Source of the DNA: Robiginitomaculum sp. | GTDB lineage: Bacteria > Pseudomonadota > Alphaproteobacteria > Caulobacterales > Maricaulaceae | Assembly (NCBI GenBank): GCA_021776515.1 | Contig: JAJFFS010000009.1 | Span: 1 to 49,499, forward strand | Direction: 5' to 3' | DNA: 49,499 nt | Shown: piece by piece, positions 135-49,356 of the stretch | Numbering within the stretch: position 1 is the stretch's first letter | Layout: every line of letters begins with the position of its first letter | The notes under the pieces: generated by a model | The model's database searches: none | Told to the model about the DNA's origin: nothing | The model's input: the letters and a program-made list of their open reading frames with translations, nothing else | Program-made: the position numbers and the translations under genes

Positions 135-779
135 TTACCGCAGCACTTCGTCCAATTCTTCGGTTAGTTTTGGCAAAACCAAAAGCCTATGGATAAGGCT
201 CTCAACAGTATCTAAAATAGTAGTCAGCATTTCCTTAGATGGTGCCCACGCTCTATGTGCTGCTGCGTGTCCGGCTTCTAGAACCGGCTTGAGAATTTCG
301 TGTTCGTGTTCTGATAACTTGCCTTCATCAATCAAAGCCTGCTTGCCTCGGAAGAAATTACCTTTATCGCCAACCGTTAGAACTATCAGCCGGTCAATAA
401 GAGTACGCGAACCGAATGTTGCCAGATAATGAGATTCAGTTTGCAGCGACTTGTAGATTTCTTTGAGAATTTCTTGCAATGTTGGGTCTGGCAAATCATC
501 AAACCACGCAGGAATTGTCCGATAGCTAACCGGTGGGTAAATGGAAGTATCCCAATCGCCCTGCCGCTCGTTTTCACCAACTTGATAAACATCTTCGGAA
601 AACAGCGTTTTCTTGACAAGGGCTAAGTTCTCGCAACCGCAGCATTCAATGATAAGTAAATTGTTATCTAGCCAAAAATCATTTTCAACAATCAGCTTTT
701 CATAAAACCCACGAACAAAATGGTTGGTTTCACCTTTGCATGCATTACAATAGAACTTCTCAATTTTGTCGTCTGTCAT
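135..779 (-). CDS. DUF4145 domain protein with N-terminal zinc-ribbon motif
   Basis: A 214-residue soluble protein. Residues about 11-15 form a C-x2-C pair (YCNACKG) and a second cysteine pair lies near residues 47-49 (CCGC), which together suggest a small zinc ribbon. The C-terminal half (about 125-205) is helical and matches DUF4145, with LIDRLIVLTVGD and the GHAAAHRAW segment typical of that family. DUF4145 is known as a helper domain in restriction and other defence proteins and also as a stand-alone gene; its activity is not established. The gene is visibly AT-rich compared with the housekeeping genes and sits beside an IS3 end, so horizontal acquisition is likely (inference). It starts at ATG 777-779 and no partner gene is visible. 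Confidence 0.7.
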   Translation of the reverse strand: MTDDKIEKFYCNACKGETNHFVRGFYEKLIVENDFWLDNNLLIIECCGCENLALVKKTLFSEDVYQVGENERQGDWDTSIYPPVSYRTIPAWFDDLPDPTLQEILKEIYKSLQTESHYLATFGSRTLIDRLIVLTVGDKGNFFRGKQALIDEGKLSEHEHEILKPVLEAGHAAAHRAWAPSKEMLTTILDTVESLIHRLLVLPKLTEELDEVLR

Positions 780-10082: not shown

Positions 10083-10221
10083 AATTATTGGGTGCCTTGA
10101 ATTGGATCTGCACAATGATAACGCACTTCACGCCAATAAAGAAGCGCAGCAATTTATGTATCTGCTCTTGGCTTTGCGGGGTGGGACAGGTAAACACGCC
10201 AAAATCTGAGCGGTGCTTCTC

Positions 10222-13200
10222 ATGCCAAAACGAAATGATATTTCCTCTATCCTCATCATCGGGGCAGGACCGATTGTGATCGGTCAGGCCTGTGAGTTTG
10301 ATTATTCGGGAGTTCAGGCCTGCAAAGCCCTCAAGGAAGAGGGCTATCGCGTTATTCTGGTCAATTCCAACCCGGCCACGATTATGACCGACCCGGATAT
10401 GGCTGACGCCACCTATATCGAGCCGATAACGCCGCAAATGGTGGCCCGCGTTATTGCCAAGGAACGCCCCGATGCGCTGCTTCCCACCATGGGTGGGCAG
10501 ACGGCGCTCAATACGGCGCTAACACTGAACAAGGATGGCACGCTTGAAAAGTATGGCGTGAAGCTTATTGGCGCGCAGGCTGATGTTATCGACAAGGCCG
10601 AGGACCGCGAGAAGTTTCGCGCCGCCATGAAAACCATTGGGCTGGCGACCCCGCGCTCTCATCTGGCGCATAATCTGGATGAGGCGATGGCGGTGTTTGA
10701 CGACATTGGCCTGCCCACCATTATCCGGCCCTCATTCACGCTGGGCGGCACCGGCGGCGGGATTGCCTATAACGTGCAGGAATATCGCCAGATTGTATCC
10801 AGCGGCATTGAGGCCTCGCCGACCAATGAGGTGCTTATTGAAGAATCAGTTTTGGGCTGGAAAGAATATGAAATGGAGGTGGTGCGCGACAATGCCGATA
10901 ATTGCATCATTATTTGTTCCATCGAAAACATTGACCCCATGGGCGTGCATACCGGCGATTCCATCACCGTGGCCCCGGCGTTAACGCTGACGGACAAGGA
11001 ATTTCAGATCATGCGCAACGCCTCGATCGCGGTGCTGCGCGAGATCGGCGTAGAGACCGGCGGCTCAAACGTGCAATTTGCCATCAACCCGGCGGATGGC
11101 CGCATGGTGGTTATCGAGATGAACCCCCGTGTGTCGCGCTCTTCGGCGCTGGCCTCCAAAGCCACAGGTTTCCCCATTGCCAAAATTGCCGCCAAACTGG
11201 CCGTGGGCTATACGCTGGACGAGCTGGAAAACGACATCACCAAAGCCAGTCCGGCCAGCTTTGAGCCCAGCATCGACTATGTGGTGACCAAAATACCCCG
11301 CTTTGCCTTTGAAAAATACCCGGGTGCAGAGCCAGTATTATCCACCGCGATGAAATCAGTGGGCGAGGCTATGGCCATTGGCCGTACCTTTGCAGAATCC
11401 CTGCAAAAGGCGCTGCGCTCTCTGGAAACAGATCGGACGGGTCTGGATGAAATACATATTGAGGGCATGGGCGAAGGCGATGATATACGGGCGCTGGGTG
11501 CCGCGCTGGCCAAAGCGACACCGGATCGTTTGCTGGTTATCGCCCAGGCATTTCGGGAAGGCTTCAGCGCCGAGGAAATACATGCCATCTGTTTTTATGA
11601 CCCGTTCTTTTTGCGCCAGATCGAGGCGATCATCGGTGAGGAAGCGCGTGTTCGCAAAAATGGCCTTCCCAAGACAGCGGCGGGATGGCGGGCGTTAAAA
11701 TCCCAGGGTTTTTCGGATATGCGCCTGGCGCTTTTGGCTGATGTATCCGAGGCCGAGGTGCGCAAGGCGCGGCGTGCGCAAGGTGTGCGCCCGGTTTATA
11801 AACGCATAGACACCTGCGCTGCCGAGTTCGAGGCCATAACGCCTTATATGTATTCAACCTATGAGACGCCGTTCTTCTCGCGTCTGGATGTTCCCGCCCT
11901 TCGAGGCTCCCCGCCAAAGAGCGGGGCGCACCTCAGGACGAGGGCTGAGGAAGAACAAGATATGCTTTCCTTAACGCCTCATCCTGAGGTGCGACGGCAA
12001 GGAGCCTCGAAGGGTGGGAACATAGAACTTGGCATGTCTGCCTGCGAATCCGACCCCGGCACCCGCAAAAAAGTGATGATCCTTGGCGGTGGTCCCAACC
12101 GTATCGGGCAAGGGATCGAGTTTGATTACTGCTGTTGCCATGCCGCCTTTGCGCTGGAAGATGCCGGTATTGAATCAATTATGGTCAATTGCAATCCGGA
12201 AACCGTATCGACCGATTATGACACCTCTGACCGGCTGTATTTTGAACCTTTGACCGAAGAAGACGTGCTGGAAATATGTGCTGTGGAGCAATCCAAAGGT
12301 ACATTGCTGGGCGTAATTGTGCAGTTTGGCGGGCAGACGCCCTTGAAACTGGCCGAGGCACTGGAACGTGATGGTGTAACCATTTTGGGTACATCCCGCG
12401 ACGCTATTGATCTGGCCGAAGACCGGGAACGATTTAAGGCATTGCTGGAGGATATGGGCCTGACCCAGCCACCAAACGCCATTGCCAAAACCGAAGAAGA
12501 AGCCCTGGCGGCGGCCGAAAAGCTTGGCTTTCCTCTGGTACTGCGCCCGTCTTATGTTTTGGGTGGCCGGGCCATGGAGATTGTTTCCGGCATGGATGGC
12601 CTGCGCCGTTATGTGCGCGAGGCGGTGCAGGTGTCGGGTAAAAGCCCGCTTCTGCTGGATCGCTACGTTAATGAAGCCATTGAAGTGGACGTGGACGCCA
12701 TTGGCGATGGCGATGAGGTCTGGGTCGCCGGTATTATGGAGCATATTGAGGAAGCGGGCGTGCACTCAGGTGATAGCGCCTGCGCCTTGCCGCCCTATAC
12801 GCTGGATGCGCCGATGATGTCGCGGCTTCGTCAACAAACCGTCCAGCTTGCCAGGGCGCTTGGCGTGCGCGGTCTGATGAATGTGCAATACGCCATTCAG
12901 GGCGATATTATTTATGTGCTGGAGGTTAACCCCCGGGCTTCGCGCACGGTGCCGTTTGTGGCCAAGGCCATTGGTGCACCGGTGGCGGGCATTGCCGCCC
13001 GCATTATGGCCGGTGCCAAATTGGTGGATTTTGACCTGCCCGCAATGCCGGACACCCATGTGGCGGTTAAGGAAGCGGTATTTCCGTTTGCCCGTTTTGC
13101 CGGGGTGGACCCGGTGCTGGGGCCAGAAATGCGCTCGACCGGCGAAGTGATGGGGCTGGACACCAGTTTCGCCCGCGCCTTTGCCAAATCCCAATTGGGC

Positions 13201-13614
13201 GCCGGGGTGAACTTACCCTTAAGCGGTACGGTATTTATCTCGGTAAAAGATTCAGACAAAAAGGCGATGATTACCCTTGCCCGCGATCTGGTAGCGCAAG
13301 GTTATAGCCTGATGGCCACCGGCGGTACGGCCAGTGCCATTGATGATGCGGATATAAAAGTACGCCGCGTTAACAAGGTTTATGAGGGCCGCCCGCACAT
13401 CGTTGATGCGATGAAAAATGGCGAAGTGCAGCTGGTCTTTAATACCACTCAGGGCCAGCGCGCCCATATCGACAGCTATTCCATCCGCCGTACGGCGCTG
13501 GAAATGGGTATTCCGTATTTCACCACAGCGGCGGCGGCTTCGGCAACGGTGCAGGCCTTGCGCGGTCTTGCCGAGGGTGAACTGGATGTGCAGGCGCTGC
13601 AGGAGTATGGGTGA
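10222..13614 (+). CDS. carB: carbamoyl-phosphate synthase large subunit with in-frame repeat insertion
   Basis: A 1130-residue enzyme that makes carbamoyl phosphate from bicarbonate, two ATP and ammonia supplied by the small subunit, for pyrimidine and arginine synthesis. The two synthetase halves begin with [17 protein letters not shown] and [16 protein letters not shown], each holding an ATP-grasp fold, and the C-terminal 130 residues are the MGS-like allosteric domain (MATGGTA). The usual length is about 1075-1110. The excess lies at about residues 557-600, between the first half's [10 protein letters not shown] and the second half, where the DNA is a repeat insertion (11891-12020) read through in frame. 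ATG 10222 fits the family start; a GTG at 10213 is less likely. carA is not in the window. Confidence 0.97.
11891..12020. repeat. inverted pair of family-B palindromic repeats inside carB
   Basis: Left arm 11891-11943 starts ttcccgcccttcgaggctcc and ends cctcaggacgagg. Right arm 11977-12020 is its inverted copy, starting cctcatcctgaggtgc and ending gcctcgaagggtgggaa. The arms differ at few positions apart from a short gap, and about 33 bp separate them. Single relatives occur at 48851-48892, 49006-49038 and 49227-49256. The insertion keeps the carB frame open and adds about 43 codons. Confidence 0.85.
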
Positions 13615-48102: not shown

Positions 48103-48122
48103 ACAGCTTTCCTAGCCGTGTC

Positions 48123-48143
48123 ACCCCGGATTTAGTCCGGGGT
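48123..48143. repeat. family-A palindrome
   Basis: accccgga-tttag-tccggggt, facing the opposite way to the copy at 48182. Identical arms to the copy at 998-1018. Confidence 0.75.
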
Positions 48144-48181
48144 CTATACGAACCTTAACCATACGCTGATCTGTATCATGG

Positions 48182-48825: not shown

Positions 48826-48892
48826 CATCCTTCGAGGGTACTTCGTCACCCATCCTTCGAGACGATTGCTGTGCAATCCCTCAGGATGAGGA
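48826..48892. repeat. family-B repeat with an adjacent partial copy
   Basis: A full unit from catccttcgagac (48851) to cctcaggatgagg (48892), preceded by a partial copy (catccttcgagggtacttcg) at 48826-48845. It is the same family as the carB insertion arms. Confidence 0.7.
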
Positions 48893-49005: not shown

Positions 49006-49038
49006 CATCCTTCAGGCTTCGACAAGCTCAGCATGAGG
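49006..49038. repeat. family-B repeat between terminator and 5S rRNA
   Basis: Reads catccttcaggcttcgac then aagctcagcatgagg. It is a diverged member of the family seen in carB. The surrounding 48966-49074 shows no tRNA gene and no coding frame. Confidence 0.6.
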
Positions 49039-49074
49039 GTTGATAGTTGAGGCACATTCAATTCAGCCCTGCAG

Positions 49075-49226: not shown

Positions 49227-49256
49227 CCCTCGTCCTTCGACAAGCTCAGGATGAGG
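49227..49256. repeat. family-B palindrome in the 23S-5S spacer
   Basis: ccctcgtccttcgac-aagctcaggatgagg has inverted ends cctcNtcct/aggaNgagg. It lies in the transcribed spacer (49191-49356) and would fold into a hairpin in the rRNA precursor. Confidence 0.7.
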
Positions 49257-49356
49257 ATTATATTTAGTGCTGCGCCAACCCGCGTTGGCGTTATATGATG
49301 TTCGGGTGCTTGATATTTCCGAAGGGACGATGCAATCGCCGCCCACGAACATTGTT

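Follow-up and report, generated by a model that had tools for sequence, protein, structure and literature searches.

In a Robiginitomaculum genome, the carB gene for the large subunit of carbamoyl-phosphate synthase contains a pair of inverted palindromic units, here called family B, which form a 136-base hairpin and are read in frame. The insert is probably a non-autonomous palindromic mobile element that would come from a nuclease-linked source and be tolerated as a flexible linker in the protein. In sister species, one codon interval of this essential enzyme is found empty, occupied by family B, occupied by an unrelated palindrome (family A), or occupied by family A in inverted orientation, and this natural series makes the tolerance of in-frame mobile DNA directly testable. 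For each family there is also a nuclease gene flanked by the palindrome, which could be considered a candidate answer to how REP-like repeats move, in place of RAYT, the known mover of classical REPs.

The insert and its place in carB

The window, that is, the whole 49,499-nucleotide stretch of DNA that was analysed, is contig C20 (GenBank JAJFFS010000009.1) of a 2.57-Mb genome in 21 contigs, referred to here as G000. The features under discussion are the following.

10213..13614, + strand: carB, carbamoyl-phosphate synthase large subunit, an ORF of 1133 aa with CPSase domains either side of the insert
11888..12023, no strand assigned: whole inverted-repeat insert, in frame, with inverted arms that fold as one long hairpin
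11898..11943, + strand: left family-B unit, 46 bp, with an enlarged apical stem CCCCGC..GCGGGG
11944..11976, + strand: spacer of 33 bp, the gap between the left and right units
11977..12013, - strand: right family-B unit, 37 bp
48854..48891, + strand: single family-B unit adjoining the rRNA genes (covariance model E 2.3e-7), absent from the model-building set

The first codon of carB is GTG, and homology to the E. coli CarB starts at the Met of codon 4. As the original prediction had it, the reading frame stays open past the insert: it is unbroken over all 1133 codons, insert included, with a CPSase domain downstream. The presence of two inverted family-B copies within the gene is borne out by the arms, which pair in two blocks (11888-11915 with 11996-12023 at 89%, and 11927-11943 with 11977-11993 at 94%), and by the covariance model, although the scores of the left and right units (E 1.0e-10 and 6.7e-14) are high by construction, since both are among the 30 units from which the model was built. 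The arms had been given lengths of 53 and 44 bp; they are indeed inverted, but these lengths take in, besides the units, about 8 bp of flank that pairs too. Independently of the model, a BLAST search with the insert DNA hit five further genomic sites (E 1e-3 or better). As RNA, positions 11888-12023 fold with -92.1 kcal/mol (z -12.6), a value reached by 0 of 200 shuffles.

The carB linker of G000 measures 237 bp, compared to 105 bp in the empty allele of the congener G002, so that the insert adds 132 bp, or 44 codons, close to the 43 or so residues first proposed. In the alignment with E. coli CarB (1bxr), residues 1-548 fall before the insert and residues 550-1058 after it, and this break places the insert at the junction of the two synthetase halves, the interdomain site expected for it. 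The AlphaFold model, built from a 36-row alignment, gives residues 555-608 a pLDDT below 50 (the mean for the whole model is 80.2 and the pTM 0.82) and leaves the insert as a disordered stretch. Between G000 and four congeners, dN/dS (Nei-Gojobori, with dS near 1) is 0.063-0.076 before the insert and 0.046-0.059 after it, and carB is under purifying selection in both halves, which lends indirect support to a protein made with the insert. Most probably, a family-B pair around its 33-bp spacer landed in carB and survives there by being translated, without loss of frame, as part of a flexible linker between the two synthetase halves, so that a working CarB would be made with about 44 extra disordered residues.

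Palindromes in carB, glyS and other genes

The family-B unit has the consensus CCTTCGAGGC, a variable stem-loop, and GCACCTCAGGATGAGG (30 units), and the family-A unit consists of CCCCCTCCG, a hairpin, and ACCTCCCCCGC..GCGGGGGAGG (24 units). By eye, the two families have no motif in common. The hairpins of family A covary, with 38 double-change cells compared to 10.2 in shuffles, and in carB this family is laid out like B, as a unit, a 21-bp spacer and an inverted unit. Scoring the best 150 or 55 candidates per genome gave no fewer than 32 covariance-model matches to family B in G000, and matches in at least 14 of the 18 genomes of the genus and in at least 36 of 120 genomes of the order. Most of the unique elements examined lie outside long ORFs (58 of 69 for B, 43 of 53 for A), and the ORF-covered ones (11 of 69 and 10 of 53) include overlapping or likely spurious ORFs. 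Pfam confirmed eight host proteins from this ORF survey, and the carB domains were confirmed separately. Within G000, ORFs that cover the repeat were sought for 21 of the 22 family-B groups (C9:47070 was left out), and only carB and glyS hold the repeat deep inside long conserved ORFs; the copy in glyS is a coding copy of the kind that the original prediction proposed to look for.

A weak third match in this genome (C15:55204) falls in the linker of a TPR-protein-like ORF and by eye is another palindrome. The ORF in question (L301, G000:C15:53704-56746) resembles a membrane-anchored TPR protein, as does L240, which was checked with Pfam, and its linker contains several in-frame units, apparently of the third palindrome described below. 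Further palindromes are also present in the window itself. Inverted copies of GACCCCGGATCAAGTCCGGGGTGACAC are found at 994-1024 and 48117-48147, and a hairpin similar to it flanks a GIY-YIG gene on a Sphingobium plasmid (L401). The third palindrome, CTTCGACAAGCTCAGGATGAGG, lies at 49017-49041 and 49235-49259, either side of the 5S rRNA gene, with one copy changed.

The nearest named carB loci, in a listing that may omit very near genomes, are from Maricaulis sp. (69%), followed by Phenylobacterium and Caulobacter. In the genus set of 18 genomes, the carB linker is readable in 17, G009 being without a good carB match, and seven of these linkers contain a palindromic pair. Family B occupies the linker in G000, G004, G011 and G013, and family A in G001, G003 and G005, where each linker is 192 bp long; the other ten linkers contain no palindrome. 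All seven inserts except that of G013 are in frame. In G003 the family-A insert is reverse-complemented relative to G005 and G001, and its frame is still open. The flanks of empty and filled alleles differ. In G013, carB (L068) is split over three frames, with a shift of one base at the palindrome and another near codon 400, and represents either an assembly error or a broken gene. Apart from the other three B alleles, the carB of these congeners lacks the segment or has a different one, the pattern that had been sought. Unrelated extra DNA in relatives, which the original prediction counted against itself, is found in part, as three congeners carry such a segment; because this segment is itself another dispersed palindrome, the case for a mobile insert becomes stronger.

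Outside the genus the picture is different. Of 124 loci taken, one (L025, the same as G015) belongs to the genus, and one of the other 123 (L154) did not parse; there are no inserts in the 122 parsed, whose linkers measure 33-46 residues counted from DTCAAEF. The idea of a general alphaproteobacterial hotspot in carB was rejected on these grounds. The presence of family B does not suffice either, since family-B-rich genomes of other genera (G021, G023, G029, G030 and G046) have a carB without insert.

The glyS gene provides a second example. Its first site, after GRYYALA, is readable in 17 of the 18 genomes (in G002 a contig end interrupts the gene) and holds family B in G000, G004, G011, G012 and G013, family A in G003, G005, G009 and G014, and nothing in eight genomes. 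All nine inserts are in frame. Six genomes have both carB and glyS filled, always with the same family (four with B in both, including G013, and two with A), a match that is only suggestive, its chance being 1 in 15. The used frame was open in all 15 inserts tested (the carB of G013 was left out), compared to 10 of 30 for the other forward frames. Selection of a hydrophilic frame was considered and rejected, as the mean GRAVY is -0.75 for the used frame and -0.77 for the others.

A second glyS site, from VLENGVRL to FFHDRLKVYLR, is highly variable in length among congeners. Its inserts, which reach about 100 residues (L332, L334, L335, L337-L339, L341, L348 and L357), gave no match to the A or B models. 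The C-termini of glyS in G003 and G007 have a divergent allele in common.

Other host proteins, identified with Pfam, include E2 acyltransferases with a unit between the lipoyl and E3-binding domains (B in G013, A in G001 and G003). In G003 there is an A unit between the lipoyl and transketolase domains of PdhB (E1-beta), a B unit between the interaction and DNA-binding domains of UvrA, and a family-A pair in a DNA methylase-like protein. A TPR protein of G007 contains a family-B pair.

Nuclease genes and the possible movement of the palindromes

Two unrelated palindromes adjoin two unrelated small nucleases. The first nuclease has the PF04480 (DUF559) domain (E 1.1e-34 to 2.7e-35 in the copies of G000, G003 and G005) and matches the endonuclease-like protein 3hrl (1e-20) and, weakly, the mobile intron protein 3r3p (0.0017). 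Each of the four family-A matches listed for G000 has a DUF559 gene, one of two, no more than about 130 bp away. The second nuclease has the GIY-YIG domain PF01541 (E 1.2e-13 in the G012 copy, to which those of G000 and G004 are 66-67% identical). Both are comparable to free-standing homing endonucleases, of the Vsr-like/EDxHD and GIY-YIG classes. Ten of ten distinct DUF559 genes in the genus loci are enclosed by A hairpins to the left and right (found with a pattern that allows up to four mismatches), and the GIY-YIG gene lies between B units at all three genus loci (G012, G004 and contig C7 of G000), but both counts carry a bias, since the genus loci were mostly fetched for their A or B matches. 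For GIY-YIG, the pairing of the flanks was equalled by 0 of 200 shuffles in G012, 1 of 200 in G004 and 4 of 200 in G000, the last two being modest.

Plasmid loci were fetched by protein alone, and 16 of 36 DUF559 loci (for spread) and 5 of 23 GIY-YIG loci were chosen by the authors, some of them from the same strain or genus. Inverted flank copies that beat all 200 shuffles were found at 12 of the 16 DUF559 loci, in hosts that range from Azospirillum to Deinococcus and cyanobacteria, with one of the 12 (L382) passing only just; the other four of the 16 had no significant copies. Among viral contigs, a single DUF559 relative turned up (E 6e-8). Both Methylobacterium plasmid GIY-YIG genes have the family-B unit inverted on their flanks (scores 45 and 66; shuffles reach at most 22). 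The GIY-YIG gene of a Sphingobium plasmid is flanked by GTCACCCCGGGCTTGACCCGGGG (score 28; shuffles up to 16) and that of a Sphingomonas plasmid weakly by CTGAGCGAAGTCGAAG (score 22; shuffles up to 19), and one of the five GIY-YIG loci had no inverted flank copies. As a further control, the left and right flanks of 320-bp pseudo-genes were scored against each other. A score of 27 was obtained for 1 of 328 in A. lipoferum, 2 of 328 in Sphingomonas, 0 of 328 in Deinococcus and 0 of 512 in G000, and a score of 20 for 34, 24, 9 and 1, respectively. In view of these controls, the plasmid loci that score 20-22 (L382 and L399) are weak. For Sinorhizobium, Sphingobium, Novosphingobium, Methylobacterium, Qipengyuania and the cyanobacteria, shuffles were the sole control.

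Two DUF559 genes with hairpins lie less than 500 bp from carB, in Novosphingobium cyanobacteriorum (L109) and in an alphaproteobacterial MAG (L115), at loci that had been fetched for carB only. By pattern, the former has hairpins on both sides, with a left-right score that is not significant (9 of 200 shuffles matched or beat it), and the latter has one on a single side, next to a contig end.

As in MITEs, the palindromic pairs have terminal inverted repeats in common with a gene-bearing element, DUF559 for A and GIY-YIG for B. The DUF559 and GIY-YIG nucleases may move the palindromes. A complete element would consist of a hairpin, one small homing-type nuclease gene and an inverted hairpin, and the hairpin pairs would be nuclease-free derivatives moved in trans by the nuclease; on this reading, what sits in carB would be non-autonomous copies of two such one-nuclease elements. 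A broader reading, which has somewhat less than an even chance of being right, is that several common alphaproteobacterial palindromes are the ends of minimal mobile GIY-YIG or DUF559 elements, each nuclease lineage with its own hairpin. Their nuclease-free copies would spread through intergenic DNA and, within this genus, would time and again occupy the same interdomain linkers of the essential enzymes CarB, GlyS and E2, one family replacing another and being translated there.

There are other ways to account for the inserts. In the classical REP scenario, both families would be moved by a Y1 tyrosine transposase (RAYT). Y1_Tnp genes are indeed present in 6 of the 18 genus genomes, some of them RAYT-like by eye (L208-L215), and genomes with Y1_Tnp are richer in A units (p 0.048, one of two tests, uncorrected). 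However, none of the eight Y1_Tnp loci fetched holds an A or B unit within up to 1.5 kb on each side, G000 is without a Y1_Tnp match, and family B is unlinked to Y1_Tnp (p 0.89). RAYT was rejected as the mover because of the eight empty loci, and the scenario as a whole is very improbable. An assembly artefact or a decaying pseudogene is hardly conceivable: the assemblies are drafts and the G013 carB is frameshifted, yet six further congeners, assembled separately, have an insert at the same linker (five in frame), there is one full-length carB match among the G000 matches listed, and dN/dS is about 0.05 after the insert. It is most improbable that the palindromes are kept for a function in which a very stable mRNA or DNA hairpin at the domain boundary holds up the ribosome and gives the first domain time to fold before the second emerges. 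Seven carB and two glyS inserts were folded, with z from -4.0 to -12.6 compared to +1.1 for the empty G002 allele; two unrelated families provide like hairpins at one boundary, and the sites in E2, PdhB and UvrA are domain boundaries as well. Stable hairpins nevertheless follow from the elements themselves, most of which lie outside long ORFs, and 10 of 17 carB and 8 of 17 glyS congeners do without an insert.

An unlikely but less remote alternative is that each site received one ancient insertion, with the A, B and empty alleles differing only through recombination between species. All four carB B alleles have GGACGAGG in the left unit and lie at an equal distance from the PYMYS codons, which suggests one origin for them, and the A and B alleles of glyS have a common right flank, GLSDLPxADL (in clade-1 genomes), that is absent from the empty alleles. 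Codons 612-660 of carB group the empty G002, G007 and G008 against the whole-gene tree (support 0.80-0.85, in one of seven windows), suggesting recombination between species; the grouping was not recovered in the wider window 612-760. Long recombination tracts around the linker were also considered, but pairwise windows gave no clear tract. Three observations speak against a single insertion. Since A and B have no common motif, the core must have been replaced at least once; in G003 the A insert is reversed relative to G005 and G001; and the glyS inserts of G012 (B) and G014 (A) belong to the other carB subclade, while G009 (A) is off the tree, having no carB. In a carB tree built with the linker excluded (12 of 18 inner branches well supported), the A, B and empty states are interleaved and need six changes, where the least possible is two and shuffled labels need 6.7; 50 of 200 label shuffles were as low, so this interleaving is no less than random.

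The preferred reading, a mobile palindrome with a nuclease-linked source, would allow B and A alleles to replace each other at one linker by insertion into a hairpin tip, template switching or interspecies recombination. Units nested in hairpin tips are in fact found: an A unit of G010 (L205) has a B unit in its loop, and in the glyS of G013 one B unit encloses another. The third family, CCTTCGACAAGCTCAGGATGAGG, occupies A-unit tips at four places in G003 (L316, L322, L323 and L326), and its identical position in all four suggests that the composite spread as a unit. The history of the inserts would then be one of few insertions followed by tip insertion, template switching and allele exchange.

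Comparison with known systems

In-frame palindromes, even different ones near one site, are already on record in the Rickettsia palindromic elements (RPEs) and intragenic REPs. The cited passages describe RPEs as palindromic repeats of about 100-150 bp that lie in frame in conserved genes at exposed sites (PMC3767692, PMC10969869, PMC2229807), and orthologues of different Rickettsia species can hold different RPE groups near one site (PMC3767692). The carB and glyS inserts resemble RPEs, including RPE-4/6/7, in being palindromes of this size read in frame inside conserved ORFs, and the RPE-like entry of a dispersed repeat into a conserved protein, as first proposed for carB, is upheld by the empty relatives, the dispersed copies, the E. 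coli alignment and the model. They differ in that the host belongs to another group, not Rickettsia-like by carB similarity (Maricaulis, 69%), that empty, A and B alleles without a common A/B motif coexist in one genus, and that each family has a flanked nuclease gene. By description, the carB repeat looks like a family other than the RPEs.

REP dimers of the GTAG/CGTC type occur inside ORFs, including uvrA and tRNA synthetases, and the recB genes of two Xanthomonas have different REPs at about the same site, according to the sections cited (Di Nocera et al. 2013, PMC3733652). The A and B consensus sequences have no GTAG or CGTC end tag (by eye; 30 B and 24 A units), the partner nucleases here are DUF559 and GIY-YIG, and RAYT genes flanked by the repeats were found at none of the eight Y1_Tnp loci. 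The CcrM-associated CIR of Caulobacter are, like A and B, short palindromic repeats in Alphaproteobacteria, but in the cited accounts they are intergenic only and contain GANTC (PMC2229807, PMC10969869), whereas A and B occur in genes and their consensus is without GANTC.

Our literature search found no record of the A and B families in this group, of an A/B/empty series at two core genes or of a DUF559 link (a link between GIY-YIG and palindromes lay outside its scope and may be in print), and nothing fitting on carbamoyl phosphate synthase and palindromes. Two papers listed for DUF559 (PMC8861277 and PMC9454445) deal, by their titles, with CRISPR/T6SS and NAD metabolism. Finally, the matches of DUF559 to 3hrl and 3r3p and the catalytic domain of GIY-YIG are reminiscent of free-standing homing endonucleases. 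No intron or intein was seen, and the difference is that the nuclease gene here lies between inverted hairpins that also occur without it. The new lead is the likely source of the palindromes, a nuclease gene for each family.
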